Below the pieces are notes generated by a model. It saw only the letters and a list, made by a program, of their open reading frames with translations. It was not told where the DNA came from and did no database searches. A DNA stretch of 64,000 bases from Cladorhizidae sp. MBARI D1340-BT2 (Eukaryota; Porifera; Demospongiae; Poecilosclerida; Cladorhizidae), in contig JAQNBH010000004.1 of assembly GCA_028752905.1 (NCBI GenBank), positions 32,577,189 through 32,641,188 on the forward strand, given 5' to 3'. Each line of letters begins with the position of its first letter. Position 1 is the first letter of the stretch. Shown piece by piece: positions 1,411 to 33,601 of the stretch. Made by a program: the position numbers and the translations under genes.

Positions 1411-2259
1411 TTGAAGGGCTGAGTGCAAGAATTGTATAAGTCAATTTTTGGCGAAAAATCAATTTTGTCCTAGACCTGATCATAATATCTTAGGACATTC
1501 CCCATGGCAATTTTTAGACTCTATCTCCATGGTGTTTTGATGTTAGGGACACTTTAGTACATTGATGGTTTATTACACATGCAAGCCAGCTGCAGTTTGA
1601 GGGCAAGAGTTTGTATAAGTCCATTAACACGCGCCAGTTACCTTGGTTACCATAGTAAACAACTAATGGCTGATACTCTTCCTATTGCCGTAGAAGTCCC
1701 TGTGGCTACTAGGAAAAGGAACCCAGATATATGGAAGAGGAATGTTTACAGAATGAAAAGAGCATTAGGTTTGGAACAGGAACAGGAACTGCAGGATGGC
1801 AGAGTAATACCCTCTAGACAGCAAGGAAACTCTTGTTTCTGCAAGAAGAGATGCTTTTCTTTATTTAGTGATGATGACAAGGAGGTTACTATGTCCCAGT
1901 TTAGTCGTTTAGGCCAAAAAGATATCCAGGATGCTCATCATTTTGGTCTGATTGCACGAAAAACTGTGCAAAGAGATCGACCACGAAGCGAACCTGGAAG
2001 AAAGAGGTCATTCACCCACACCATATTCTTAGCTTCTCATTTCATTATTTCTTGCCTGAAGGCTTATAATCATCATAAAATCAGTACAGAAATAGCTGAG
2101 GTTTGTGGGTAATTCCCAACACAAACAAGGCTGATGCTATCATAACAGGTATTAGGGCAGAAGATGCCATCATAACAGTTATTACAGCGCATGATTAAAA
2201 CGCGTATAACTCAAAACATTGAATATGTACTTATACACTTCTTGCACTCAGCCCTTCAA
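1411..2259. mobile_element. Small inverted-repeat transposon D (849 bp) inside pogo A
   Basis: A 31-bp terminal inverted repeat with one mismatch opens with TTGAAGGGCTGAGTGCAAGA at 1411 and recurs in reverse at 2229-2259. Removing it restores the pogo coding frame (codons D-N-Y-F across the joint). Because the joint sequence is a palindrome (AATT), the target duplication could be AT or AATT, so the superfamily cannot be fixed from the ends alone. A diverged copy of part of the terminal repeat lies inside, near 1596-1622. The element carries one long ORF (1579-2112) with a cysteine-containing motif and no DDE block, so it is probably a deleted, non-autonomous derivative. Confidence 0.8.
1579..2112 (+). 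pseudogene. ORF in element D: N-terminal region of a transposase-like protein with a Cys cluster
   Basis: This is a 177-codon open frame. The informative part is the middle: RKRNPDIWKRNVYRMKRALG, then CFCKKRCFSLFSDDD, then RLGQKDIQDAHHFGLI and KRSFTHTIF. I recall this layout (basic W-K-x-N-V block, C-x-C-x3-C cluster, acidic patch, aromatic/helical segment, R-x-H-T block) from a large family of uncharacterised invertebrate transposon-encoded proteins. I cannot name the superfamily. The first 50 codons overlap a degenerate copy of the terminal repeat, so the real start may be the internal Met near 1666. No catalytic domain remains; the frame stops shortly before the right terminal repeat. Confidence 0.5.
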
Positions 2260-2905
2260 TTACTTCAAACTTTTGAAAGAGGTGTTGGTGGAGAATAACT
2301 TGATGAACATGCCAGGGCAAATATATAATGTGGATGAGTCAGACATGCCACTAGACCATCGACCACCTCGTGTTGTGACTTTAAAAGGAAAACAAAAAGT
2401 TAGGTACCGTACTTCGGGAAACAAGAGTCAGATTACAGTAATAGGGTGTGTCAGCGCAGCTTGACAGGCTATACCACCGTTTGTGATCTTTGATGCAAAG
2501 AGTTTGAATATAGAGTGGACAAAAGGTGAAGTGGCGGGAACAACATATGGCCTAAGTGATAGAGGCTGGGGTGATATGACATTGTTTAAAGGGTGTTTGC
2601 TGACCATTTCCTTAAGTATGCTGTTGCTGCTCGTCCAATCTTAGTACTTCTTGATGGTCATAGTTCACACTACAATCCTGATGCTATTAGACAAGCTAAA
2701 GAAAGTGATATCATTTTGTTTACCTTAGTACTGCATACGACTCACGAAATGCAACCATTATTTGGTCCATTAAGCAGTATTTGGTCCATTAAAAAAGCAC
2801 TGGCGTGATGCTTGCCATGATTTCATTTGATCTAATCCAGGTAAAGTAATCACCAAATATAAATTCAGCAGCTTGTTCAATACAGCCTGGATGAATACCA
2901 TGGTA
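2260..2905 (+). pseudogene. Pogo A transposase, catalytic core segment
   Basis: The frame continues from 1410. It reads YFKLLKEVLVENNL, then QIYNVDESDMPLDHRPP with the first catalytic Asp (NVDES), then VTLKGKQKVRYRTSG, FVIFDAKSLNIEW and ILVLLDGHSSHYNPD with the second Asp. These are the DDE_1 motifs of pogo transposases. Lesions include a stop at 2462-2464, a frame change near 2595 and a short duplication around 2755-2790 that repeats the coding of Q-P-L-F-G-P-L. The C-terminal part KYKFSSLFNTAWMNTM runs into the TA at 2904-2905, where Tigger B is inserted. The protein resumes at 9805. Confidence 0.85.
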
Positions 2906-3177
2906 CAGTAGAACCTCAGTATAACGAACACTTCGGGACCAGAAGGTGTTCATTATAGTGAAATGTTCGTTATACTGAAAGTAATGATGACATAATTTCG
3001 TATTGTGTTGAATACACTGTTTTCCCGCCTATAGGCACCAGATGTTGTTCAGTGGCTTGATGGTTTCCTGTCAAGTATGGTATATATTACCCTTACAGAC
3101 AATTTGGTCATTGCTATGTCCAATGTAAATAACAACTGCTACAATTTACACATGCAATCATTATTGAGAGTACATGT

Positions 3178-3257
3178 TTAATGGTGGGGGTTGAAATAAT
3201 CCGTTATGCAAGTTTGCTTCTTGGCGTTTAAACATGCTAACACAGCAGAGGATCGTA
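3178..3257 (-). pseudogene. Tigger B transposase, C-terminal tail displaced by element C
   Basis: Read on the minus strand from the TA at 3256-3257, the codons encode RSSAVLACLNAKKQTCITDY and end FNPHH with TAA at 3178-3180. This completes the transposase whose main body stops at the other side of element C, at 8062 (QLMLLNKL). A tail of the form Q-x-x-I-T-D-Y-F is what Tigger/jerky-type transposases usually end with. The joint is in frame, which proves that C inserted into B and not the reverse. Confidence 0.85.
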
Positions 3258-3572
3258 CAGTAGGAGACAAAAAAAGTTCCAGTTCCATGCCCGTTTAAAC
3301 GGCAATGCTACGCTTTCGTGAAAAAAAGAAACGTGGAATGATCGGATAGAAAATCCAACGGACAATCAGAACAAACGCAAATAAAACGCCGAAAGGTATC
3401 CGTTTCCAAATGTTTTATTCTAGCGCGTCCTTTTTTACGCACTTGCGCATTCGTGAATCAACCACGTGCTATTGCCAAACCACACGCTTCCAGTTCCTTT
3501 GCTTCGTGCTGATTTCATTTGCTCGTCTAACTCTTCTATCGTTGTCTTTCGACTACTAGTTCATTTCCAGAT

Positions 3573-5404
3573 ATGTCTTTGAGGGCTGCCCTAAAGAAGT
3601 CAATTGTGGACAGAAGTAAGTATTGCTTCCTAAGCAAATCTAGCCTTAAATATATATATTTTTTAACCTAGAAGCGTTTAGCTAAGCATCTTTTTGGGGG
3701 GGGGCATAGCAAACCTTTGTCTGATTATGTTTGCTGCCAGGCCTCTTGTATTGACAAGCGAAATAATTATCTGACAATTATTCAGAATACGTGTTGGTCT
3801 CTTGGCCACTGGAAGATTCCATGTCGGTGGTACCGATTAACATGGTGAAAGATGGCTCGTCTGTGGGAGATGACTGCAGAATAAAAGTGGGGCGGCTATT
3901 CCACGAGGGAAAGATTTTTGCAATCGGTAAGCACTTTTGTATGGGGAATATAAGACAAGAGTTTTATTATATCTATAACAGGATCCCATGACTCAATGGT
4001 CGAGTTGGAAGAGAGAGTGTTGAACGATCGAACTCTTTCTTCACCACACCAGCCATCCACTCCAGACCAGCATTCCACTCCAGACCAGCAGTCAACTCCA
4101 GACCAGCAGTCAACTCCAGACCAGCAGTCAACTCCAGACCAGCAGTCAACTCTCCTCTATCTCAATGCTGCTGTATGTAGTCGGTGTTCGATGTATTGCT
4201 TTGTTTTAGTCACTGTAATACATGTACAGACATCCAAACAGACATCCAAGAAGAGAAGGCAGTACAACACTCCAAAAAAGGTGCCTGCTGCAGTAAGTTG
4301 TTAAGTCTACATGCAATGTTAAGTCTACATGCAATGTTAAGTCTACATGCAATACAGTATCTTAGTTATGAACCAGTCAATACAATCTAGGTGACAAAGA
4401 AGAGGCGATTAGGGCTGAAAAAGAGGGGCAAAATGGCTACAGCTCCTCTTGGTAAGTTTTAAAATTATTCAATCATAGTAAGTTGACTGACATTCAAAAT
4501 AGGTTCAATTATAATGATAACGGAGGTGCCGCCAAGTTCTCCCCAAGCACAACCCCAAAACTCTTCCCCACCAAGGCTCCCAAGTTCCTCCCCGCCGAGG
4601 CTCCCAAGTTCCTCCCCGCCAAGTCTCCCAAGTTCCTCCCCGCCAAGTCTCCCAAGTTCCTCCCCGCCGAGGCTCCCAAGTTTCTCCCCGCCGAGGCTCC
4701 CAAGTTCCTCCCCACCAAGGCGATGCTGCTATGCAAACGAAGGTCTGTAAACAACCTTTTCCATTATTGTTTCAACATGTAAGATTCTCACATCTGTAGA
4801 TTTTATGGCTCTGACAGAGATTGTCTCAAGCCTCCAGAGGAAAGTTGCTACAATCGGGAAAAATGTGGCGACTCTGCTTCTCGTAGCTACACCCTCTCCT
4901 CCACACTCTTCACTGCACCCTACTCCCTCTTCTGACCTGGCACAGTCCCTGGTGCACCCTCAGACTCCTTCAGTGGCGAGGAGGAGTGCTCTACCTCAGA
5001 CTCCTTCAGTGGCGAGGAGGAGTGCTCTACCTCAGACTCCTTCAGTGGCGAGGAGGAGTGCTCTACCATCGGAGGTCATCAACGTGTCGAAATTACTCCA
5101 TGCCCACGACGTTTTAAGAAAATATTATAAACTTTCGACCACATGTAAAGCAGGAACACTGGCATGTAAGCTAGCTAGGGAGGCAGTGTTTGGGGAGGAT
5201 GTGATGATGAGGTGTACCCCCATGGGAAATAGAGAACACAATGGGCTCCCACAGAAGGAACTTCAGGCACTCAAACTGATATTGTTCAATCACTACTCGG
5301 CAGCATTTAAGGACCTCGTAGACTTCGAACCAACATGGGAAAAGTGCCTTGAATCTGTCCAGCAAGCCTGCAAACGTCTACGTTTGAAATCTATGGATGC
5401 ATAA
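3573..5404 (+). CDS. BEN-domain-like accessory protein of transposon C (447 aa, 7 exons)
   Basis: The proposed exons are 3573-3615, 3786-3926, 3982-4172, 4230-4292, 4391-4451, 4503-4742 and 4800-5404. Every intron is GT-AG, phases agree, and the total is 1,344 bp (448 codons with stop). The N-terminal module reads YVLVSWPLEDSMSVVPINMV and KVGRLFHEGKIFAIG. Five STPDQ-type repeats (18-bp units), two KKRR/KKRG basic patches that could be nuclear signals, a proline-rich block of 24-bp units (SSSPPRLP) and three 36-bp units (QTPSVARRSALP) follow. The C-terminus (about residues 340-447) has KLAREAVFGEDVMMRCTPMG, an E-L-Q-A-L-K helix and W-E-K-C-L-x-S-V-x-x-A-C-K-R-L-R, which matches the layout of a BEN domain, a DNA- or protein-binding module. 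The function in transposition is unknown. The splice model is mine and the BEN call is by motif only. Confidence 0.72.
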
Positions 5405-5800
5405 TGTATAGTCTTCTTATTAATAATTATGACTTTTTTGGTTATCAGTCTTCTAATTAATAATTGTTTAAAGTGATCAATTAACAGTCCTTTCAATGCT
5501 GGTGTTATGACTGAACAATTTTACTAAATAGTAAATTAATAATTACGACTTTTAAAGTGATCAATTAACAGTTCTTTCAGAAGATGCTGGTGTTATGACT
5601 TGGTGATCAAATTTATTATTAATAGTAAATTAATAATTATGACTTAAAGTGATCAATTAACAGTTCTTTCAAAAGATGCTGGTGTTATGACTTTTAAAGT
5701 GATCGATTTTACTAATAGTATTCTAATTAATAATTATGACTTGTAAAGTGATCAATTAGCAGTTCTTTCCCTAACCAAGTTATCAATCAATTGCTCAGCT
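5405..5800. repeat. AT-rich tandem repeat downstream of the BEN gene
   Basis: A unit of roughly 65-95 bp containing TTAATAATTATGACTT, AAAGTGATCAATTAACAG and GATGCTGGTGTTATGACT recurs about four times with indels. It lies just after the stop codon of the BEN-type gene and probably includes its 3' untranslated region. No coding potential is visible. Confidence 0.7.
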
Positions 5801-5967
5801 GCTGTTTTAAACATACAAATGTCCAGCTTACACAACTTTGTTATACATCATGACCAACACTGGGTAGGCCCATCATTTCACACCTTTTAATGTGGTGACC
5901 AAGACAGCTTACATTGCAAAATCTTGAGGTTCATCAATAATGAATTATTATAATAGCAAGATGTGGA

Positions 5968-6111
5968 CAACAAACAACTAGTAACAACAAACAACTAGTA
6001 ACAACAAACAACTAGTAACAACAAACAACTAGTAACAACAAACAACTAGTAACAACAAACAACTAGTAACAACAAACAACTAGTAACAACAAACAACTAG
6101 TAACAACAAAC
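5968..6111. repeat. 17-bp tandem array (AACAACAAACAACTAGT)
   Basis: About eight to nine near-perfect copies of a 17-bp unit run head to tail and stop at the 3' end of the Tc1 transposase gene. The near-identity of the copies fits a young array. It sits between two convergent genes of element C. It is a simple minisatellite, not a CRISPR array: there are no unique spacers. Confidence 0.9.
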
Positions 6112-6113
6112 AT

Positions 6114-7656
6114 TCAATATCCAGTTGCTGCTCCCTGTACTTCGATCATTCTTGGAATTACCTTCCTCAGGTGCCTGATATATTTTTGGCACTTGGCTCT
6201 AGATACAGTCATCCAAAATTTGACGATCCCCTCGACTAGCTCTTCTTTAGTTTTGGGTTTGGACTCCCTTCTAATAAATTCCTTCAGTTCATGCCATACA
6301 TTTTCTATTGGATTTGCATCCGGGGATTCAGGTGGTGTCTTCCACCAATTAATGTTGTTGTCGTCAAAAAAGTCCTTCAATAGCCTAGATGTATGTTTGG
6401 GATCATTGTCCTGCATGAAGCGATGGTGATCCGGGAACATTTGTCGCAAATAAGGCAGAAGTGTCCTATCCAGGATCTCTGCATAGAGAGGAGCCCTCAT
6501 GATGCCTTCAAATATGCACATGGCAGTGGCTCCTCGCAGGCTTATGCCGGCCCACACGTGCACTTTGACGGGATGTTTAGCTCTGTAACAAAAGAAATAG
6601 AGAATATATGAGGACTATATGCAGAATAGTGTTTTGAGTGGGGGACGTGATAAAATTGTATGGGAGAGGTAGCGAAGAAACATGAAATTGATCTGCTGTG
6701 GCCTTAAAGTAGACATTGTCAGTACCTTGGTTTATTTTTTGGACGTTGTCCTCTTTTGCGGCAGCAAAATCGTCGATGTGATTGAAGCTGGACCGTAGAC
6801 TCATCCGTCCAGATGACATCCTCAAACCCAGAAGATGCCTCCTGAATAAAATGTTGAGCCCACTCCAATCTTTTCACCTGTGAATGGGAAGAGGTTATTG
6901 TAATATTACCTTGACCTCCACATGAATCCAATATTTCAGTGACTACAGCTATGCCTGCTAAGCAGCAAGCTAAGAAACTAAAACGAAGGACTTTTTTTGG
7001 GGGGGGGGGGGGGGGGGGAGACTCATTCCAAGATAGTGTTTCAGCCATTAAATTCAAACTACAATAAGCTAAGCTTCACATTGAGCCCTAACTGTATATA
7101 CTAGGCTGTATGTTTAAACCAGCCTAGCCAACATTCACGCTTTACCTAAATTGTTATTAACTTTCTGTTTAACTTAGTAAGTTTAAACTAGCGAACCTAG
7201 GGAATCATGCTTTTTCCATTTGCTAACTTACAAAATAAGAACTAAGCGGAGCAAGCTATAGAAACTTACCTTATTTACATTCCTGATGAGCTGGCAGTAG
7301 GAGCTCCCTCGAAAAGTCCAGCCCAGATTAGTCCTGCACCGTAGAACAGTCCTTAAGTTAATGTTGTATCCCTTGGTCAGCAACAGACGATGGAGCTGGT
7401 ACGCAGAAGTTTCATCGTCCAGCTGCATCTGTTCCTCGACTATTTGTTTGAGGGCTGGGGTGAACACTGAAGGTCTTCCGCTGCCTGCCAGTCGAGCTGT
7501 TGTCTTGGTGTGCAGGTAACGCACCAAAAACTTCCTTATGCCGCGTGAAGTTGTCTGTAAACGTTCCTCTTTCAGAATGTTAAATATTGCAAACGACCTG
7601 TAGCCTTGCGAATACAGACTTAATATCCTCTGTTTCTTGTACGCACTATACACCAT
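6114..7656 (-). CDS. Tc1-type transposase of element C (335 aa, 3 exons, intact)
   Basis: Exons on minus are 7656-7270, 6877-6726 and 6582-6114. All junctions are GT-AG, and the sum is 1,008 bp with no stop or shift. It catalyses cut-and-paste transposition at TA sites. The N-terminus has a paired-type helix-turn-helix (YKKQRILSLYSQGYRSFAIF, then GRPSVFTPALKQIVE). The catalytic core has D1 in VIWTDES, D2 in MQDNDPKHTS and E in NPIENVWHELK, with 34 residues between the second D and the E, hence DD34E. Family members are usually about 340 aa and intronless, so the two introns are odd. The first (7269-6878) contains an 18-bp G run near 7000. The start at 7656 gives the expected length. It converges with the BEN gene. 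Confidence 0.88.
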
Positions 7657-7659
7657 TCT

Positions 7660-8031
7660 GAATCTGGTGAGAAAGCGTGAAGTGTACGAACGAAACGAAG
7701 CACAAAGCTAATAAATAGTAGAAGAGGCTGACTAACAAATGTTCTGAAAAGAACAAGAAGGACGAGGCTGAAGACGAGGTAAGACGAGGCACGGAAAAGA
7801 TGAAGCACGAAACTGGAAGCACTGAGACGAAGCTAGTAGCACGAGGCCTGACGTACAACTGCGCATGTGCAAGGGCGGACAAAATCTAACCGCGAACGCG
7901 AGTTATAAAAACTCGGAAGGAAAAAAAAAAATCGCTGTTCGAACGGAGTTTTTCGTCCGTTTGTTTAGCCCTGCTGTTTCACGGAGTTTATACGAGGAAT
8001 CAGAGAAACGCCAACGGCAATAAAACGGTAC
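7660..8031. promoter_or_regulatory. 5' region of the Tc1 transposase gene in element C
   Basis: These roughly 370 bases between the transposase start and the right terminal repeat must hold its promoter. The sequence is unusually rich in GACGAGG/GAAGCACGA-type purine repeats (7690-7850). I see no clear TATA box. The function is inferred from position only. Confidence 0.35.
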
Positions 8032-8061
8032 GGAACTGGAACTTTTTTTTGTCTCCTACTG

Positions 8062-9633
8062 TAGCTTGTTCAGTAACATTAACTGGACACTGCTAGTGTT
8101 TGGCTGTTGCTCAAGGTAACGGATGCACACATCAAAGGCATCTGCGGCTTCTTTGTGACTGGGTCCTTGTTCTTCAGATTCATCATTGGAAGACTCATTC
8201 TGGTTGGATTCTGAAGCAAGATGAACAATTTCTTCATCTGTACGTTCTTCGCCCAAATTCTTCTAGCCATTCCTGAACTTCACTAGATGACACTGATAAT
8301 TCAGTGCCTATTTAAAAAATAGCACATGCATCGTCAGCATCATCGGGAGCCCTTGAATTGTCAGTGCCTGCTGAAGCTCCAGGATTATCAGTGCCTGCTG
8401 AAGCCCCTGAATTGTCAGTGCTAGCTGGGTTGGTAGATGTACTGCAATTACTGCTGCTAGCACCAAGAAGCTTATTCCAAGCACGTGAAAGTGACTCAGC
8501 CCTAATGTCATCCCAAGCCTCTGCACACATGTAAATGCATTTCTTTATATTTAAATCTTTGACAAATTGCTGTGGTGTACCCTCTTCAAGAGATAGCAGC
8601 AACTTTTGTAGGAGAGCACGCTTGTATCGTCTCTTGAGGTTTTCTAACACACCTTGATCCATAGGCTGAATAAGGCTTGTAGTGTTGGGCGGAAGAAAAA
8701 AACATGTAATGGCACCATCAGGGGTCTGCAAAATGCTGGACTTAGGATGGCTAGAAGCGTTGTCTAAAACTAAAACTGCTTTTCTAGCCAAGCCTTGATC
8801 CCTTAGATACCTAGAAACACTGGGAACAAAATGATCAAAAAACCAGGATTTAAAAATCATAGAATCCATCCATGCCTTCTTTTGGCTAGCATAGATAACA
8901 GGCAAAGCACTTTTATTTATATTCTTTAAAGCTCTTGGATTCTTTGCTGTACCAAAAGAAGGGGTAGCCTAAAATTTCCTGATGCATTAGCTGTAGCTAA
9001 AACACTAACTCTATCTTTAGGTTTTTTAAAACTCTTAGCTGTTTTTTCATGGCTTCCGGCAAGAGTTTTCCGGGGCAAAAGACGCCAGTACAACCCTGTT
9101 TCATCACAGTTAAACACCTGATTTAGGGTTAGCTGCTGCTCTTCAATTAGCTCAAGCAATTTCTCTCTAAAGGGGCCAACAGCAATGCTATCAGCTGACA
9201 AAGACTCGCCTTGAAGTCGTAACTCCCTTATGCCATGCCTTTGCTTGAATCTGTGGAGCCAGCCATGGCTAGCCTTAAAAGACTCTTCACTATCATCAGG
9301 GTGGATTACTGAATGCAGCATCCTTGCCTTCTCCATTATAAGAGGTCCACTTATTGGAGAGCCTTTAGCTCTTTCTTGTGTGAACCATAGATACACAGAT
9401 CTATCTAGATGGTCGTCATCAGCTACTCTCATCTTCTTCCTTGCAGAACCATCGTCAGTCTCTCGCTCCGCGATGTAAGTTTGAAGCTTATCCTTCTGCT
9501 TCACTATATCAAAAACTGTAGACTTACCAATACCAAATTCGGTAGCTACTCTAGCAAAAGAATATCCCTTTCCACGCATTTCCACCACCTTTTCCTTCTG
9601 CTTCAACGTCAAGTTTTTCCGCTTGGCAGACAT
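8062..9633 (-). pseudogene. Tigger B transposase, main body
   Basis: The minus-strand ATG at 9633 begins MSAKRKNLTLKQKEKVVEM, a CENP-B-type helix-turn-helix (SFARVATEFGIGKSTVFDI). A second HTH follows (VYLWFTQERAKGSPISGP; KASHGWLHRFKQRHGI). The DDE_1 core has VFNCDETGLYW (first D), AVLVLDNASSHP (second D) and NTTSLIQPMDQGVLENLKRR (third D). A one-base deletion near 8956 shifts the frame, a stop sits near 8311 and another shift near 8260. After that, HKEAADAFDVCIRYLEQQ leads to the C insertion at 8061. The order and spacing match full-length Tigger transposases. It is inactive through these lesions and the insertion. The tail lies at 3178-3257. Confidence 0.9.
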
Positions 9634-9804
9634 CTCAAAGAAGTTATCTGCTACAATCCTAGGCTACGGGACAAATGGAGTCACGTGTATGCGAGTGATT
9701 ACTGCACGCGCGTGACTCGTGCGAGTAATTACCGGTCCGCGGTTGCGTTCGCTATACCGAGACATCCGGATAAGTGAGTTCCGTTATACTGAGGTTCTAC
9801 TGTA

Positions 9805-9862
9805 CCAAGAACAATCATCAGCGGTTTCAGGACATGTGGGGTGTATCCATTTAACCCTAAGG
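9805..9862 (+). pseudogene. Pogo A transposase, 19-codon bridge between insertions B and F
   Basis: Immediately after the TA that ends element B, the frame reads VPRTIISGFRTCGVYPFNPK. C-G-V-Y-P-F-N-P is a common sequence near the end of the DDE_1 domain in pogo transposases. It ends within CCCTAAGG (9855-9862), the 8-bp target duplication of element F. The second CCCTAAGG at 13807-13814 continues the frame as A-V-L-E-S-F. This short piece is the key evidence for the order of the insertions. Confidence 0.85.
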
Positions 9863-12800
9863 GTTCCTTCACAATTATCAACATTTTCACAAGTGTACAA
9901 AACGTACGTTAGGGGGGGGGGGGGGAAAGACCTGCCGTACGCTCTCTATATTTAAAAAAGACAAATAACAACTAATTTTTTTAAATCTAACCAGAGACTG
10001 CAATCTTGCAGTGTCGAATGCTCTAGCAAAGCGCGTCCTAATTTTGGACTGACCGACCAATTGAGCAAGCTAGAGAGCTGCCCCGTGTCGCTGCTAAAGA
10101 TGAAGATCTCGGACCGGACAATGGCTAGTACACAGTGTACTGATGTCGCGCATGCATACTCTTCTTTACCAAGTATCAACATTAGCAATACTTATACCTG
10201 CTCACAATCTGACTGAATGGCAGCTAGCCTACAGCGTTTCCAAACGGCCATTGACTTTGTGAAGGAGAGGCCTTCTGCAGTGCACAAGAAGGCTTCAAGT
10301 TTGTACCACAATTTTGTGAATGCTTTTGTGTTCGTACACGAGGACATGAAGCGTGGAAATGCCGTGTCTGCTGGACAAGCTATTTGGAATCGAGTGAAAT
10401 CAGGTGATCCAGACCAACTTGCTGCAGTGTTTGAATAAGCACAGTCTAAAATGGAGAGAGTGAACAGGAAGAAGCCGATAAGTATGCTGGATTTCCTCTC
10501 TAAGGTGGGTCTAATACTTCATCATTCACCTCAAACTGTGTTAAACTGGTGGAAAATGCTTTGTCAACTGTGCTATGTGTATATATTTGGCAGACTAGGC
10601 CCATGTGCTATTTAAAGGCTGATAGTGTGGTTGGTCTTCATATATTCAACATGTTTTCTTGACTTCCTTCAGGCTACACCTGCTGCATCTGCGCAGACTG
10701 AGACTGCTGTTTAGCGTCCTACTTCTAGTCATGTGGAAGTTGAAGAACCAAAAGAGACTCCTGCTACAGCTTTGGCCAGTAGTGATCCACAATTATTCAT
10801 ATCTGATAGCCAGGTGAATGCAGCGACATTCTTGTGTCAGAAACTCAAGATCCAGTCCTCAGATCTTCTCACTGAAGACGTTCGATCTCATCCCTAGTTC
10901 ATGAGAGCACTATGCTCTATCTCTACCTCAGCCAAGACCTACTTCTCGTTGTTGGCACAATATTTCGTCAAAAAGGGATCAATTGTTTCACAAAAACATG
11001 AACATGCAGACTCTAAAATAAAGGAACTGTCCAAAGCTTTGGCGGAACTATCACACATGAAAGTGGTATGTGGAAATGTTGCAGTTCAGTTGAAATCTGT
11101 CCAGGCAAAATTGGGATGCTACCTCTTTATTCCATACAAAAACCACACTGGAGGAAGCAGTTTCTCAGTTGCAAGGTAGTGTTCGAGCACAGAAAGCTCG
11201 TAAATTCAATCATCTGACAGGGAATAATGAGTACAAGTTGATTGCTGGCAATTCTCTCTGTCTGATCTGGGAAGGAGCAGAGGAAACACTCGGAGAACTA
11301 GAAACAGGAGGGGGCATGGACTCTTTTGTGCCTTTAAGTGTACTACAACTCTGCGTATTCCCAGCCATAAAGGACATGTGTCATCATTCTGGTATGCTTG
11401 GTATAACTGGCTTTTTCATTGCAGAAAACTTTCATTTACAAGTGGTCAACATGAAGGCTGCAATTGACCAGCTTATCGATGTGTACCCTTTGCTCTGTGT
11501 GCAGAAGGGTAAGCACTTTGTATTGGTGGATTTTGTTGAGCTTGTTTTCAATCCAAACCTGGTTCATGAGCTACTCACTTTGGATTCAGCAGCTCAGACT
11601 GGCGGTTCCACTGAACATTCTCCGAGTTCCCCCTCTAGACATTTCCCCCTCTAGACATTTTTCTGAAGGAGTTTTCTTTCACAAAAAGCCTGGACCAAGA
11701 CCACTGCTGAATAAATATCCACAAATCTTGGTAGTCATGCTTAGGCTACATGGTTTTGGTGCCCATATACGGAGGCGTACTGGAACTTCAACGTCGTGTG
11801 GTATAGGATTGAAAGACATCCGTAAACATGTCCTTGAAACGTGGATGGCCTGGATGAGATATCCTTGACCAAAATCTAGTATCTGTTGAAAAGAGCAAAT
11901 TCCAGTTCCATTGCTGCTGCAAGGCACAAGTTTGCTCTTGACATTCGTGTGGGTACAAAATCAGGTGATGTCAGCAAAGATAATCCCCATGCCCATGAAT
12001 ACTTTGCAGCTGTTGCAAACATTCGCCAGTTGGGAATATTATATCCAGGTGAGTGTGTGTCTTTTTCTTGTGATAGCAAAGCAAAGGTACACATTGGTGG
12101 TCAAGCTATGTCCAGGAACATTATATCCAGGTGAGTGTGTCTTTTTCTTGTGATAGCAAAGCAAAGGTACACATTGGTGGTCAAGCTGTGTCCAGGTACC
12201 ATCAGCTACGTACATTCTTCCCCGGTGATGATCAACCACACTATGCAGATCATGACTTTCCTGTTCCAGGGTATTTGATAGAGCCTGATGGCTACTTACA
12301 GTTGATTTCAAAGGACACTTAAGTAGCCTTTGTGAAAGGCAACCGTGATGTGGTAGATGTCCCCTCAACAGGCCCACTGTGGGTTTATAACCGGTGTGTG
12401 AAGAACACATCTACAAAGATAAACGATCATGTGACTGACCTGATGGACATCTTCAAGGATAACCAAGTGTGAAAAAGCCTGTGTTACTTCTGGTGACTGA
12501 TGGGGGTCCAGACTGGACCCCCAAGTCAAACATCAATCAGTACTTCCTTGGAAAACTTTGGAAAGATGGGAACTTTGACATGGTGATCAGTGCATGCATG
12601 CCAGCTGGTCTTTCACGCTATAATCCTATTGAGCACCTTTGGTCACCTTGCTCAAAGTTCCTAGCTGGAGTGTCTCTGCCTGCATGCTTGCCTGGAGAAA
12701 CTATCCCACCAGCCCAGCAGAGCCTTCCTGACGAGGAAAAAGATGTGAAGGAATAGAAAGTCTTCATAGACAGACTCGACATGTACTGAGATTGAGTTCA

Positions 12801-17690: not shown

Positions 17691-18588
17691 CCCTTTCACC
17701 GCTGACTTTCCTGGACATTTTTCCTAAAATATACCAGATACCAAAAAAAATCATTATAAAATCAGCAATCCATTCATATCAGTTGTAATTTTGTCATGTG
17801 ATAGCACCATTGTTTATAAACAATGTGATCTCATTAGTTAACCACACTATCAACCACAAAATATGAATCTCATTATGCTAAATTTCTCTATCAATATCTA
17901 ACATTTAATCAACAAAAAATGTTTATAATATATTTACTCATTTAGTTAGCATTTAGTAAACATTAGTCATAATAATTAGTCATAATAATTTAGGCATATA
18001 GCAATATATAGAGGAGGGTTTTTGACAAAATTTGATCATATGATTCTATAGCCCAGCAATACAATGTTTTATTATGTTATTGAAATTCAACTATTTGAAA
18101 AGAACATGCAAATACAAATATGTAGATACTTTAGCTAACCTGAGAAGGCTTCCTGATCAATTTCATTATAACTAGAGAGCTGGTTATAGCAAAAGGAAGA
18201 ATCCTGAGGGTTTAAAGTAGGGTCAACTACAGCGCTAAAGAATGTACTGCTGCACGATCAGAACTTGCATTTCCAAGGTAGCCACATATTTCTTCACCTT
18301 CTGACTCATCCTCAGTGAGAGCAAAATTCTCGCTAGAAACCAGGGAAAGTACTTCTTTAAGCGCTAAACATCCACTCATTTTTAGGTCGTCAAAACCGCG
18401 AACCGTCGGTAGTTGCACGTAATTTTCGCTAACTAATCGGGCGTTTCCGGATGTAATTTTTGGACGTCATATAGAATAATAGTTGCTCTTTCCGGTGGTA
18501 TGCAAATTATGACTCTAGGCCAAGCGATCGATTTATTAGCGATTTTTAAAGTCCATTACGCCATATGGTGCTTACAGCGGTGAGAGGG
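17691..18588 (-). mobile_element. TTAA-flanked piggyBac-type non-autonomous element K (898 bp)
   Basis: TTAA lies at 17687-17690 and 18589-18592. Ends are CCCTTTCACCGCTG at left and, in reverse, CCCTCTCACCGCTG at right. The right subterminal GTAAGCACCATATGGCG closely matches the right end of piggyBac I (GTAAGCGCCATATGGCG), so the two share a lineage. The AT-rich interior retains only the first exon-sized piece of a transposase on minus. It is an internally deleted derivative dependent on a full piggyBac transposase. Confidence 0.85.
18227..18418 (-). pseudogene. piggyBac transposase N-terminal remnant in element K
   Basis: The short frame includes MSGCLALKEVLSLVSSENFA and LTEDESEGEEICGYLG. 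A short helix followed by an acidic Asp/Glu/Ser stretch close to the element end is how piggyBac transposases start. The equivalent part of element I (MLSCEDVISQLLADDSGDSG) has the same shape and position. The likely start is the internal Met at about 18379. Nothing of the catalytic domain remains. The assignment depends mainly on the TTAA ends. Confidence 0.5.
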
Positions 18589-18716
18589 TTAAAGTGCACT
18601 GAATAAGATGTGGTTAATTAACACACACAAAATACTACAAGAATGTGACCTGAAATTAACCCCTTCATAGAACAATGCACAAGGGCAATGTCATGATGCT
18701 GCTACAACAATGGCTC

Positions 18717-25310: not shown

Positions 25311-26773
25311 AGAAACTTACAAGAAATCCATCCATACAATGGGACAAGTGTTTGCCATATGTCTTGTGGTCCTACAGAGGTACAGTCCATGCCACAACTG
25401 GGTTCTCCCCCTACATGTTGGTATATGGGAAAGACATGCGCATGCCCTTAGACCAAATGGTCCGGTACTGGAAAAAGAAGGAGAAAGAGAATGAGACCAG
25501 TGTGGTAGAATACGTGGAGACTTTAAAAGCTAGCATGCAAGTGGTTCGAGATATAGCCTATGAAAAAGAAACCCAGGAGAAACAGAAGCAGAAACTGTAC
25601 CATGATAGAACGGCCAAAGAGAGAGTGTTTGAGGTAACTGATTATGTGTTGGTCTTCAGACCAGGGAAGCAACACAAGTTACAAAATACATGGCAAGGTC
25701 CTTACCCAATCACCGAAAAGATCACCGAGGTGACGTATCGGGTAGACTTGGGTACAAAGGTGAAAAGGTACAGGGTGTTTCATGTTAACTGCATGAAGCT
25801 GTGGATGTCACCGGCTCCGGCTGTGTTTCTGGCAGTGGATGACAAAGAAGACAACCTGGAAGGAGAAGAGGAGACAAAGCACCCCCCAAACATGCCAAAT
25901 TCTCACCACACAGACATAGCTCAGTTTAAGGAAAAGTACAGAGATGTTCTCCAGGATGTTCCTGGTAGAACAACCGTGGTAGAGCATGAAATACCTACAG
26001 CAGAAGCCATGCCTGTTAGGTTACCCCCTTACAGGTTGGCCCATCATGCCCAAAAGACTTTGAGGGATGAGATCGATATCCTTCTTTCACAAGGAATCAT
26101 AAGACCTTCTAAGAGTCCCTGGTCAGCCCCAATAGTTCTGGTAAAAAAGAAAGGGGGTGGCCATCGCATGTGTGTGGACTATAGGAAGTTGAACCATGTA
26201 ACGACCAACGACCCATACCCTCTCCCTAACATTGATGAGTTAATCTCAGAAATTGGTGCCTCTCCCTACATAACCACGATTGACCTCACAGAAGGTTATT
26301 ATCAAGTGCCAGTTAAACCAAAGGACATACCCAAGACTGCTTTTGTAACGCCTTATGGCAAGTACGAGTTCACAGTTATGCCGTTTGGTTTAATAGCAGC
26401 ACCCTCTACATTTCAACGTCTGATGGACGATTTGCTGAATGGGTTGCATGGTTTTACCAAGGCTTATCTTGATGATATAATCATCCACAGTAAAACATGG
26501 GATGATCACCTTAGGCACCACAATATTGTATTTGAGAAATTGAGGGAGGCAGGGTTAAAGGTTAAAGAGCAGAAATGTACCTTTGGAAACGGCAGTTGTG
26601 TCTACCTAGGTCATGTAGTTGGTAGTGGTCAAGTGAAGCCTATGGATTGCAAGGTGACCGCAGTCAAGGAATTTAAACAGCCCAAGACTAAAACAGATAT
26701 GAGGTCTTTTCATGGGTTAAGTGGTTACTATATCGAAAGTTTATTAAGGGCTTCTCTACTATTGCCACCCCTC
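25311..26773 (+). pseudogene. Gypsy G integrase C-terminus and reverse transcriptase
   Basis: Continuing in frame from the TTAA: LTRNPSIQWDKCLPYVLWSY and HATTGFSPYMLVYGKDMRMP close the integrase core. A helix-rich tail leads to the GPY/F module (WQGPYPITEKITEVTYRVDL, about 25694). After an acidic linker, the RT begins VPGRTTVVEHEIPT, then SPWSAPIVLVKKKGGGHRMC, LNHVTTNDPYPLPNIDELIS, MPFGLIAAPSTFQRLMDDLL and AYLDDIIIHS (YLDD catalytic, about 26464), then FLGH-type VYLGHVVGSG and MRSFHGLSGYY. A single frameshift near 26732 precedes the Harbinger insertion at 26777. Apart from that the frame is open for over 470 codons. Confidence 0.92.
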
Positions 26774-26951
26774 TTAAGGCCTGTCCACACTACACAAAAA
26801 TTGAAACGTTTCAAATCGTTTTCTGAGTCGTTTCCGTTGCAAAACGACTTAAGTCGTTTTGCGCGCGTCCACACTACAGAAATGAACAGCTGCACGGGAC
26901 CGCCCACGGTCGTAAAAAATGTCACGCATGCGCGGAACTTAACTGTTAGCT

Positions 26952-27128
26952 ATGGCGAATGTGTATCGAGTTCTTCTTTTTTTCGTGTGGATGATGGCCT
27001 ATCTACGGCTGATGAAGTCTCATGCTGTTCAGAGAAGGAGAAGGAGAGTATTAATGGCAAGGAAGGCCCACGCAAGATCAGTTTTATTTGAGATACACAC
27101 GCAGTGGCTACAAGGGTCAGTTATCTAG
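26952..27128 (+). pseudogene. Harbinger transposase N-terminal remnant in element L
   Basis: The 58-codon frame begins MANVYRVLLFFVWMMAYLRL and continues with QRRRRRVLMARKAHARS. A short hydrophobic leader followed by a run of arginines is how many animal Harbinger transposases begin. It ends at TAG after Q-W-L-Q-G-S-V-I, with no catalytic domain. The call leans on context (ends, TTA, Myb partner). Confidence 0.5.
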
Positions 27129-27316
27129 CTATAGCTAGCTAGCTACTTGCACACCTTGCTAGCTAGCTATAGCTACCAAAAATGTAAAAGCAGTAAAAGC
27201 TACATAGCTAGCTAGTTTAATAGCTGCATGCCATAGAGATTTTTCTACAGCTTGACTGGATATGAAGCTACCATTCAAAATATATAAAAAGGCAGGCTTA
27301 CAAATAGCGACAGTAG

Positions 27317-27529
27317 CTAGATAGCCTTTCTATACTTGAAGGTTACGTTCTTAATCTTCGACCGAAACTGCTGCCACATCCTTTCGATCCCAAGTACGGC
27401 CAACTGCTGAGCAACGCGCTCATATACCGTCCTATTACGTTTCGCCCCGTCCAATTCCTTCTGCACGCCCTCCTGCGCCCAGATACTGACCAGAGCCTTA
27501 GTTTGATCAACCTCCCAACCTCCAGCCAT
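27317..27529 (-). pseudogene. Myb/SANT-like DNA-binding protein start, element L
   Basis: The 70-codon frame MAGGWEVDQTKALVSIWAQE, then RTVYERVAQQLA and RMWQQFRSKIKNVTFKYRKA, has the three spaced tryptophan/aromatic helices of the Myb/SANT-like domain found in the second Harbinger protein, which helps bring the transposase to the element ends and to the nucleus. The DNA-binding domain looks complete. The remainder of the protein is missing. Confidence 0.75.
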
Positions 27530-27655
27530 CTTGCGAGCTCGAGCAATAAAAAGTGTTCTATATGATGCGCAATATTTATCAATTTCTACGTTTTTGAAAA
27601 CGTTTACATCCGTCTCAAGTCACCTATTTCGTTGGCTCAAAACGTAGTCGTTTAA

Positions 27656-27728
27656 CTCTTAGACCCCGAGCGGCCGGTTTTTCGGCCGATACCTAGAGTG
27701 GTATATACCCGAGCGGCCGGTTTTTCGG

Positions 27729-27765
<37 letters not shown>

Positions 27766-27859
27766 GCATTATAATCAACTTTAAACTTTTTAGTAATTTT
27801 TTTCCCAGGACCACAGGGTGGCAGGCACACACATATTAGGGAGCATAGGGTTCTAAGGG
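27656..27859. mobile_element. TTAA-flanked MITE M (204 bp) inside element L
   Basis: TTAA lies at 27652-27655 and 27860-27863. Imperfect inverted ends are CTCTTAGACCCCG and, in reverse, CCCTTAGAACCCTATG. CCGAGCGGCCGGTTTTTCGG occurs twice (27667 and 27708). A T run of about 36 bases (27729-27764) follows. It has no coding capacity. Confidence 0.7.
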
Positions 27860-29114: not shown

Positions 29115-29702
29115 GTAGTCCTCGTTATGATTGACTAATGGAACGAACAAGAGCCTCGCAAAGGTCGTTACTTCAACGTGGTTTACTTAACGGCTTACGG
29201 TCCGCACTGGAAGAGCCTATAATGAGCTATGAAAAAATTATGGCAAAACAAAATAACAAAAGAGACTTACCATTAGAAAGCACAGACTGCAAGCTATAAT
29301 TTGATATACAGTACACGCCAAAAAAAACTTTACGTACCGTTTGCGTTGTACGTTTGCGGGACGCTTGAGTCACAGCGTTCTTCTACCGTTCGCCATACGT
29401 TCGCCAAGCGTTCGACAAACGTTTCCCATACGCTTGCCAACAACGTAAGTATGTACGAACGGTACGTTAGCCACGAATCGTTAAGCGTCCTAATATTGAA
29501 TTCACTTGCGCATGCTCTCCCGCGATCGACGAAGGCGGGAGAAAGGCAGTTGACGTGTTTTATCGCTCACTTCAACTCGGCTGTTTATTGCTCACTTCTA
29601 CTCGACTGTTTATCGCTCACCCAGTACTCCGAGGAAATGCCTTATTCTACATTTAACAGGCTCAGCAATATGAAAAATAAATCATCTAAATAAACAACTT
29701 AC

Positions 29703-29986
29703 ACCAGACTGTGCCATTCATTGGTTGAGGGCAAGGAGCTACATTTTCCTCATCTTCAAACACTGGCTCAAACTCCTCCTCAAGCTCCTCCATGGCTGCT
29801 TGGGTACCTATATTTCAGCATAATAATAATAATCTCATTTAAATTAAAAAAAAACTTTTCAAACTTACCAACAGCTGAAATCGTCCCATTGAAAGTCAGC
29901 CTCCCAGCTTTGACCTCACAGTCCTCTCTGCCCCCTAAAACTTTGCTGCTTGGTACAGCCGAGACAGAATTTTCTTCGGGTCAGAA
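29703..29986 (-). pseudogene. Two passenger exons in element N
   Basis: On minus, one exon down to 29869 reads PEENSVSAVPSSKVLGGRED and VKAGRLTFNGTISAV, ending at GTAAGT. An intron of 61 bp (29868-29808, ending ATATAG) follows, then exon 29807-29703 reads TQAAMEELEEEFEPVFEDEE and NVAPCPQPMNGTVW, ending at another GTAAGT. The reading frame and splice phase agree across the intron. The 5' boundary of the first exon lies near 29986 and is uncertain. I do not recognise the family. Possibilities are a captured host-gene fragment or a remnant of the element's own gene. Confidence 0.4.
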
Positions 29987-30160
29987 GACCAAACAATAAT
30001 CTGTCAAGTATCAAGAGTTCAAAGATAAATTAATTCTGATCTAAATGCTCTCAAGATGAACACGCTATGGTTAATGTACAGATCTTTACTAGAAGTAGCT
30101 AAAATCTTGGTTGGTTACTGGGTCTCTGCGCTAGCTTTTATCCCCTTCGGGCAAGTATAC

Positions 30161-30404
30161 TTACTACGATGAGCCAAGGTAGCAGCTAGAGTTCTTCTGA
30201 GAGCAATAGAGCAAACAATCGATATCAACTAGAAGCAGCAGACTGTTCAACCTCGAAGTTAGCAAGTAATCGAACGCGCCCTTTACTACGATGAGCCAAG
30301 GTAGCAGCTAGAGTTCTTCTGAGAGCCATAGAGCAAACAATCGATATCAACTAGAAGCAGCAGACTGTTCAACCTCGAAGTTAGCAAGTAATCGAACGCG
30401 CCCT
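30161..30404. repeat. 122-bp direct duplication in element N
   Basis: 30161-30282 and 30283-30404 are head-to-tail copies beginning TTACTACGATGAGCCAAGG and differing at about one position. The near-identity indicates a recent local duplication. Confidence 0.9.
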
Positions 30405-30714
30405 TTCGTACACGTGGTGAAGGCTACCGGAAATGTGATTGCGCGTTTCGGATAATTAAAGAACGGTTCGTGCGTTGGGTTTTGCTTGAGCGTTGGTTGA
30501 GCGTTCCCTGTGCGTTGCCTGACCGTTGCTTGTGCGTTCCTGATCAAACGTTTCTGCGTTGAACGGAAGCCCAACGCAACGGTACGTAAAAACAATTTTG
30601 GCGTCTACTGTATAAATCGGGAAAATAGAGTGAATGCGAGCAAAGATATGATACTTTATGAGACTACGCGATACGCAGCCCTCTTTCCCCGTTAATCTCA
30701 ATAAATGTTCCATG

Positions 30715-31718: not shown

Positions 31719-33601
31719 CAGTAGACCCTCGCATATCCAACCCTCGTTTATCCGATGACTCGGTTTATCCGAAGTAACAGAGCAGGGTTCAAAGGTGACA
31801 TTACGCGCATACTCCACGTTTTTTTTGCCAGCTGCTCCCGTTTCTTTTTTTCTAGCGGACGGCTCGAGATCAAGAGAGAGAAAAGGATGGCTGTGTCTGG
31901 AGCTCCACGAAAAGAGAAAAGGAAAGTTTTGTCGATTGACTCGAAGCTGACGATTTTGGACTCCCTCACTAAAGGAGTCAGTCAAGCTAGACTGGCTGAG
32001 GAGTACGGGGTAGGTAAGTCTACGATTAGCGAACTAAAGAAGAGTGAAAAAAAGATTAAGGAATACGCTAGTACGCTCGACAGTCAAGGTGTGAGCACAT
32101 CTAGAAAGATTATGCGACTAGCTAAGAAGGATAAGCTAGAAGAAGCCCTCTATATGTGGTTTATTCAGAAGAGAAGCCAAGGAACAGCTATTAGTGGACC
32201 TCTACTAGCAGAAAAAGCTCTGGAGTTGCATCAGAAAATGCAAGGAGAAGCTGACTTTAAGGCTAGCAAAGGTTGGATGTGGAGATTTTGTAGGCGTCAT
32301 GGGATTAGGCAACTGTCCCTTCAAGGAGAAAAGCTTTCTGCTGACGCTTCTTCCATTGATAGCTTCAAGAAGAAACTGCAAGAAACAATGGAGAAAGAAG
32401 GTTTAACTCTGGAGCAAATCTATAATTGTGATGAGACTGGCCTGTATTACAAGATGCTGCCAGAAAAAACTCTAGCATCCAGGTATGAGAAAGGAGCTGA
32501 TGGAATGGAAAAAAATGGCATGTTCTAATGCAACAGGAAAACACAAGCTGCCCTTATTGCTCATTGGAAAATCAGCTAATCCCAGGTGCTTCAAAAATGT
32601 AAATAGAGGTGCTCTTCAAGCCAAATATTATGCACAGAAGAGTGCATGGATGAACACAGCTATTTTCACTGATTGGTTTCATGGTGAGTTTGTTCCATCA
32701 GTAAAAAGGTATTTAAGTAGCAGAAACTTGCCTGGAAAGGCCCTTCTTCTGTTGGACAATGCACCCTCTCATCCTTCTACTGATGTTCTGGAGAGCAGTG
32801 ATAAAAGTATCACTGCTCTCTACTTACCACCCAATACAACATCACTCATCCAGCCAATGGACCAAGGAGTGCTTGTAACCCTGAAACGACACTACAAACG
32901 AGCCTTACTAAGGAAGTTGCTTCTTCTGGATGGGGATGGACATTCTATGGTCTCATTTGTCAAGACGATAGATATCAAGAATGTCCTTTACACTTCTGCA
33001 GACTCCTGGGAGCAAGTTAAGGAATTAACACTAGCAAAATCATGGATGAAATTATTGGGGGGCAGTTCTACACTACCTCCTGACTCCCCTCCACAAGACA
33101 GCAACGAGGAACCTGCCATTGAAGAACTTGCTCAATCATTGGACCAAAACCTTACAGAAGATGATATCAGAGGCGGGATTGAAGCTGATACGAGTGACCC
33201 TGGTCATCAATTGTACACTGATGAAGAAATAATCAGTCAAGTGTCGGGGATGGAGGATGTGCCTTCAGAAGATGATGGGGGAGAGGAGGAGAAGGAGTCC
33301 GAACATTGTCCCACAAGTGGACAGGCTGCTGACATGCTTGATAAATGCCTTACCTGGTATGAGTGTCAGCCTGAAGCCACAGCCACCTCACCGATGCTTC
33401 TAAAGGAAATAAGAGATTTAGCTGTTAGAAAGAGATACATGAACTTCAAAAATTAAAAATACAATCTTTTCTTAAGAAATAAACAAATTTATGATATACA
33501 TATACAGTACTTGTACAATGTAATAATTTTGCATATCCGAACTTTTTGCATATCCGAATAGCCTCTGGTCCCAAGCTGTTCGGATATGTGAGGGTCTACT
33601 G
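31719..33601 (+). mobile_element. Tigger-type transposon O (1,883 bp), near full length
   Basis: TA lies at 31717-31718 and 33602-33603. Inverted ends are CAGTAGACCCTCGCATATCC and, in reverse, CAGTAGACCCTCACATATCC. One plus-strand transposase gene fills it. The inner TATCCGAA motif is repeated near both ends (31757 and 33533-33560), as expected for transposase-binding sites. Confidence 0.93.
31887..33456 (+). pseudogene. Tigger O transposase, one visible deletion/frameshift
   Basis: The ATG at 31887 begins MAVSGAPRKEKRKVLSIDSK. The CENP-B-type HTH reads SQARLAEEYGVGKSTISELK. A second HTH follows (YMWFIQKRSQGTAISGPLLA; KASKGWMWRFCRRHGIRQL). The DDD core has IYNCDETGLYYKMLPEKTLA, then LLLLDNAPSHPSTDV and TTSLIQPMDQGVLVTLKRHY. 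A long acidic C-terminal part and YMNFKN end it at 33456. Near 32505 the first frame stops, and the second frame takes over with MACSNATGKHKLPLLLIGKS. Compared with other Tiggers, about eight codons are missing there, so a small deletion probably caused the shift. It would otherwise be about 520 aa. It performs cut-and-paste at TA. Confidence 0.9.

Follow-up and report, generated by a model that had tools for sequence, protein, structure and literature searches.

Tc1/mariner elements usually carry one intronless gene; they are the textbook one-gene transposons, and gene-transfer tools in wide use are built on them. The element analysed here is a transposon of the demosponge Cladorhizidae sp. 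MBARI D1340-BT2, situated in a 64,000-nucleotide stretch of assembly GCA_028752905.1 (contig JAQNBH010000004.1, positions 32,577,189 to 32,641,188 of the forward strand), referred to below as the window and numbered from its first letter. Its target, catalytic triad and fold family make it a Tc1/mariner element; the number of its genes, its introns and its ends set it apart. With DD34E members of the IS630-Tc1-mariner group, such as Sleeping Beauty, it shares the TA target, a terminal inverted repeat (TIR) of the CAGT type, the DDE_3 domain and the 34-residue spacing, whereas it differs from them by a convergent gene encoding a BEN-domain protein (the BEN gene), by two introns in the transposase gene and by CpG-dense ends. 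In the accessible text of the literature searched, the only multi-gene relatives of Tc1/mariner found were the ciliate Tec/TBE elements. These are likewise of Tc1/mariner type with more than one gene, but according to the accessible part of the source (PMC7325037) they have TIRs of about 700 bp, three open reading frames and, in Tec, a site-specific recombinase, and no BEN domain is mentioned there. A Tc1 element that carries a BEN gene was not found in that literature, which did not extend to Repbase, Dfam and most subscription papers.

The comparative evidence presented below leaves us nearly certain that DD34E transposons of the Tc1/mariner type with two genes form a lineage here, with a transposase gene and a convergent BEN gene, both predicted to be spliced, enclosed by a single pair of TIRs. 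The window element is one undamaged member of that lineage, whose BEN protein has stayed under purifying selection throughout the divergence of copies and families.

The element, its two genes and its copies

The complete element occupies positions 3256 to 8063 with the TA at each end included (3258 to 8061 for the element proper), as delimited by its inverted repeats, by full-length copies elsewhere and by the TA at both ends. Its TIR arms are perfect over 20 nt when the TA is counted in (3256-3275 and 8044-8063; 18 nt without it) and extend imperfectly to about 40 nt, with overlapping 29-nt arms at 86%; the inverted-repeat search places the left TIR, which starts CAGTAGGAGACAAAAAAA, at 3258-3297 on the plus strand and the right TIR at 8021-8061 on the minus strand. 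Within this one pair of TIRs a plus-strand BEN gene of seven exons and a minus-strand transposase gene of three exons converge, and every junction predicted from the sequence follows the GT-AG rule. The first-pass annotation of the window had proposed just such an element, i.e. an intact DD34E transposase and a second gene with a BEN-like C-terminus and coding minisatellites, in uninterrupted GT-AG-joined frames between TA-flanked inverted repeats. Our re-derivation recovered each of these features. The annotation also took the element for the innermost and youngest insertion of a nested chain, and the only one free of damage; on this point the analysis covered its position, inside the TIRs (2901-2926 and 9782-9807) of a pogo-like element, and its identity to two sister copies (L012 and L013, below).

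The transposase exons, obtained by exon joining, lie at 7270-7656 (exon 1), 6726-6877 (exon 2) and 6114-6582 (exon 3, with the stop codon) on the minus strand and yield a protein of 335 amino acids (aa) from 1,008 bp. Triad mapping by alignment with Sleeping Beauty puts the first catalytic D in exon 2 (D154) and the second D and the E in exon 3 (D238 and E273), with 34 residues separating the second D from the E, i.e. DD34E. DDE_3 (83.9 bits) is the sole Pfam match above cutoff, and Sleeping Beauty (5cr4, E 2.1e-26) is the only solved structure that matches at E 0.001. None of the Pfam helix-turn-helix domains matched the window transposase, and PF01498 or PF13565 was present in many of the relatives listed.

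The BEN gene was likewise assembled by exon joining, on the plus strand, and encodes 447 aa in 1,344 bp. Exon 1 (3573-3615) starts with the ATG at 3573, and exon 2 (3786-3926) encodes, in its part 3788-3925, the N-terminal module YVLVSWPLEDSMSVVP... (N-module). The following exons encode minisatellites, located by a repeat search, and basic stretches: an 18-nt STPDQQ minisatellite in exon 3 (3982-4172), basic stretches in exon 4 (4230-4292) and exon 5 (4391-4451, KKRRLGLKKRGK), a 24-nt Ser/Pro minisatellite in exon 6 (4503-4742) and a 36-nt minisatellite (4958-5067) in exon 7, which runs from 4800 to 5404 with the stop codon. The last exon also encodes the BEN domain (PF10523 by Pfam, residues 367-439, which the exon map places at 5159-5377), and the profile scores 25.2 bits with the whole protein and 28.8 bits with the C-terminus, both above the gathering cutoff of 23.2. 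In the BEN alignment A2, seven of the nine members match the BEN profile at E 0.01 and two do not; at least 72 relatives of the subfamily were recovered at E 1e-6 among 7,996 candidates scored. The N-module has no Pfam match above cutoff (DUF2097, at E 0.053, was not used). With A2, no relative was confirmed among the 9 stretches obtained from GTDB genomes with one peptide pattern, or among the 138 obtained from viral contigs with two. Three matches of the TIR 20-mer in viral contigs, all from a single phage lineage with near-identical context, were dismissed as chance.

The window's own genome (857 Mb in 325 contigs) was searched with the left 243 bp of the element. With 40 of the 130 candidates scored, this yielded 44 matches, and the sequence of the 20 best places other than the window itself was fetched; because the best-matching places were chosen, this sample is biased to young copies. 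BEN as well as transposase sequence, whole or partial, is present in 17 of the 20; L015 and L016 contain BEN sequence, and L019 the left end and exon 1 only, in each case without transposase in the fetched stretch. Both genes are open throughout, with GT-AG junctions, in three of the 21 copies, namely the window element, L012 and L013, the latter two being 96-100% identical to it per 300-bp tile. Their BEN proteins measure 447, 455 and 519 aa, respectively, and the differences consist of repeat units whose lengths are divisible by three. In L014, transposase exon 1 is interrupted by an insertion of 2 kb, and the remaining copies have frame-breaking indels or have lost pieces in one or both genes. 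As to whether the element is a mosaic, with BEN and transposase halves of separate origin, the identity profile is even along L012 and L013 and dips in L017 at element positions 2101-3000.

Apart from L022 and L024, whose flanks are 99% identical and which represent one duplicated insertion, no two flanks of the fetched copies match. A TA is present at the left end of all 20 copies; the window element and the 13 fetched copies that were inspected at both termini have it on either side. L012, L020 and L030 each interrupt a tandem array, the intact units of which show the empty site with a single TA. The element presumably moves by ordinary cut-and-paste into TA. The first-pass annotation had put forward several independent copies with both genes between TA-flanked ends as support for a two-gene element, and these exist; its predicted splice sites are conserved in other copies and in other families.

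Families, genome-wide pairing and selection

The genome was also searched with the BEN C-terminus (150 places scored of 584 candidates) and with the transposase (150 of 1094). Many of the BEN matches belong to other families, with roughly 41-58% identity, and six such distant loci (L032-L037) were fetched. Five of them have the same convergent layout as the window element, with BEN C-termini that are 51-56% and N-modules that are 43-52% identical; because L034 and L036 have a common TIR, the five represent four families. TACAGTAG is common to the ends of these families, and the two transposase introns occupy identical positions in L032, L034 and L035. Moreover, a quick tree that includes the best 120 of 1781 transposases from the database groups the four BEN-linked ones in a single branch (SH-like approximate likelihood ratio test, SH-aLRT, 94).

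The association extends through the genome. When the best 150 of the transposase places are compared with the best 150 of the BEN places, a convergent BEN match lies within 8 kb of the transposase at 52 of the 60 best places, 76 of the best 90 and 92 of all 150, with a median gap of 635 bp between the two; the paired places are partly duplicates, so that not all are independent, and the chance expectation for convergent pairing is about 0.05 over all 150 transposase places.

Several observations weigh against this picture. Among the five distant loci with the convergent layout, both TIRs are recognisable in L034 and L036 alone, with one end in each of L032, L033 and L035, and the transposase is reduced to its last part in L033 and has its exon 1 in two pieces in L035. 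Eight of the 60 best and 58 of all 150 transposase places are without a convergent BEN among the matches listed, and 58 of the 150 BEN places are similarly without a transposase partner. Copies that lack the plus-strand gene had been named beforehand as a result that would speak against a two-gene element. Four of the eight unpaired best places (L058-L061) were opened: L059 and L060 do contain a BEN gene, in a damaged state, in spite of their unpaired listing, L058 runs into a stretch of N in the assembly at about 2500-2600 (BEN side first), where the BEN side of an L032-family element is expected, and L061 has no BEN in the 2.6 kb past the end of its likeness to L032. Copies without the plus-strand gene are seen only weakly. 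Among weaker places, L063 consists of a decayed transposase with a trace of the N-module and L062 of a decayed transposase without such a trace.

Selection was studied in 15 older copies, pooled and compared with the window element; L012-L014 were left out as too young, L019 as a fragment and L024 as a duplicate. The ratio of nonsynonymous to synonymous differences per site (pN/pS) is 0.15 for the BEN domain, 0.19 for the N-module, 0.30 for the basic part, 0.43 for the low-complexity middle and 0.22 for the transposase; without CpG codons the respective values are 0.12, 0.28, 0.28, 0.60 and 0.25. Both ends of the BEN protein are therefore about as constrained as the transposase, and the middle is less so. 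In the same copies the synonymous divergence is 0.156 in the transposase and 0.361, over two times as high, in the BEN domain region.

These data bear directly on the view that a host BEN gene, or a fragment of one, was caught once in a Tc1 element and travels as a passenger. BEN frames without a nearby transposase, such as the 592-aa frame of L037, would be in line with such an origin, but the layout is the same in five families (the window's and the four others), the pairing is genome-wide and purifying selection acts on both genes, which argues that the BEN gene is no passenger. On these grounds we reject the passenger origin for this genome, and assign next to no probability to it. L037 itself has an open frame that ends in a BEN domain and contains a long proline-rich repeat; neither a transposase nor an N-module was found within 6.8 kb of it, and it is perhaps a freed or host copy.

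The CpG-dense ends and the role of the BEN protein

The first-pass annotation had taken the second gene for an accessory factor of the element, and the match to the BEN profile, the conserved splice sites and the retention of the gene in copies and families bear this out: very probably the BEN protein serves the element. That the lineage is a two-gene one, that the BEN protein serves it and that it does so by binding DNA is, taken jointly, a likely combination. The protein would then be an element-coded DNA-binding partner of the transposase, which leads to the question of where it binds.

A CpG count revealed dense stretches at both termini of the window element (3258-3557 and 7762-8061), with observed/expected ratios of 1.86 in the first and 1.83 in the last 200 bp. 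In all nine copies measured, the ratio in the terminal 200 bp of both ends is 1.5-2.5, whereas the interiors (0.33-0.47) and 16 kb of sequence drawn at random from the genome (0.40) are poor in CpG. Over 15 copies, the CpG sites have diverged by 9-11% in the outer 300 bp and by 21-23% in the interior, and other sites by 4-6.5%; such low terminal CpG divergence is the pattern expected if the ends stay unmethylated or are under selection. In addition, AACG/CGTT is the most enriched of the 136 four-mers at eight ends from five families (98 occurrences versus 58.3 in dinucleotide shuffles, z 6.2) and exceeds expectation at seven of them; the left 300 bp of the window element contain 8, versus 5.2 in shuffles.

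As described in the accessible part of PMC11472053, the human proteins BANP and BEND3 prefer unmethylated CpG, and the accessible text of PMC3260210 reports that the Ac transposase binds AAACGG repeats within the terminal 200 bp of its element. From the CpG-dense, little-diverged ends, the AACG excess, the preference of BANP and BEND3 and the Ac precedent we infer, tentatively and with somewhat less than even confidence, that the BEN protein acts at the element's own ends, the likeliest of the roles considered. In this view the protein, perhaps oligomeric, would use its C-terminal BEN domain to contact the CpG/AACG-rich terminal 150-300 bp; it would keep the ends open or unmethylated, or hold them together, and thereby help the transposase. 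A stricter version makes the element's BEN protein an obligatory reader of unmethylated CpG, which binds at the CpG-dense termini and licenses the transposase only at unmethylated ends. This version seems doubtful to us; if it were true, the element would sense host DNA methylation and keep its own ends free of it.

A number of findings speak against binding at the ends. The exception to the AACG excess is the right end of the window element itself (6 in 300 bp, versus 6.6 in shuffles). The window contains 12 CpG-dense stretches, of which four are the ends of its two BEN-carrying Tc1 elements (the second is described below) and one is an end of the pogo-like element, and such a stretch is also present in two of 20 random 800-bp regions. 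According to the accessible part of PMC11472053, the methylation sensitivity of BANP needs the full protein and oligomerization, the BEN domain alone being insensitive. The Ac precedent also suggests that the transposase alone could bind the ends here. Finally, the predicted structure of the BEN protein is a weak model (predicted local distance difference test score, pLDDT, 59), for which Foldseek gave no match at E 0.001 and BEND3 ranked third at E 4.4.

The same termini fit a different role. As a regulator, the BEN protein would bind promoter DNA in the ends or host chromatin and would repress or protect transcription of the element, for copy-number control or as a means of anti-silencing, while staying outside the transposition reaction. 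The CpG-dense ends adjoin both start codons and may be promoters, the divergence of their CpGs is about half that of the interior ones, and BEN proteins are, in the accessible parts of the literature, described mainly as chromatin-related factors. A pure repressor would, however, be harder to maintain by selection on transposition, and yet the BEN protein is about as constrained as the transposase. We regard a purely regulatory role as rather unlikely, if less so than the obligatory CpG reader.

The insertion sites suggest yet another role, i.e. that the BEN protein selects the target: it would bind ACATGT-like motifs or tandem arrays at the insertion site instead of the element's ends, and recruit the transposase there. 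A tandem array adjoins the left flank at 10 of 23 insertion sites, and at two of 20 TA sites in an emulated random set (Fisher p 0.019). Of random TA sites, 25% are situated in arrays, and in comparison with that share the same 10 of 23 give a p-value of only 0.05. ACATGT occurs within 100 bp in seven of 20 left flanks versus 13 of 160 random 100-mers (p 0.002), and the BEN domain of NACC1 binds this motif according to the accessible part of PMC7764960; nevertheless, the excess is confounded by the arrays, the motif was picked after the flanks had been inspected and there is no BEN-less control family. We consider target selection by the BEN protein improbable. A preference of the element for tandem-repeat targets is possible, and weakly supported. 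The left flanks of L012, L013, L016, L018, L020 and L030 lie in or beside tandem repeats, several of them with CATG or ACATGT units.

The second BEN-carrying element of the window, on the minus strand at 29307-30612, is a shortened one of the sister family to which L033 belongs. It has the TIRs TACAGTAGACGCC... and TACAGTACACGCC..., CpG-dense ends on both sides and 5' BEN exons, of which exon 2 carries a stop; neither the BEN C-terminus nor a transposase was matched there. The pogo-like element at 2901-9807 that hosts the main element has perfect 26-nt TIRs and two transposase-like frames (8312-9633, named by look), and its CpG-dense end lies at 9561-9900; a second pogo-like transposase, also named by look, consists of two overlapping frames at 31755-33456. 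Further stretches that are about as CpG-dense as the element ends lie at 18261-18640, 26721-27060 and 27261-27840. The idea that CpG-dense ends are a hallmark exclusive to the BEN-Tc1 lineage is ruled out by such equally dense stretches elsewhere in the window.

Relation to known transposons and BEN proteins

Outside Tc1/mariner, three groups of systems resemble parts of the arrangement. BANP, BEND3 and NACC1 share with the second protein the BEN domain and DNA binding, which for BANP and BEND3 is directed at unmethylated CpG (accessible part of PMC11472053), but they are chromatin-related cell proteins and are not borne by transposons. In Ac/Ds elements of the hAT superfamily, a short CG-containing motif (AAACGG) is repeated in the terminal 200 bp and bound by an element protein; however, as far as the accessible text of PMC3260210 goes, the binder is the transposase itself, and the element is not of the Tc1 type. 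A like division of labour is found in the PHIS transposons (ISL2EU, NuwaI, NuwaII and others), which combine a DDE transposase with a separate element-coded DNA-binding protein of the Myb/SANT or YqaJ type (accessible part of PMC4482050). These differ in transposase superfamily, target sites and partner domain, and the window element has no Harbinger-type transposase, the only Pfam match above cutoff of its transposase being DDE_3 and the only solved structure that matches at E 0.001 Sleeping Beauty.

The lineage links the BEN chromatin proteins with mobile DNA and offers a direct test of methylation-sensitive transposition. That a second, probably DNA-binding gene was kept until the lineage had split into families would indicate that Tc1/mariner transposons, too, can divide labour between two proteins, as the PHIS elements do.

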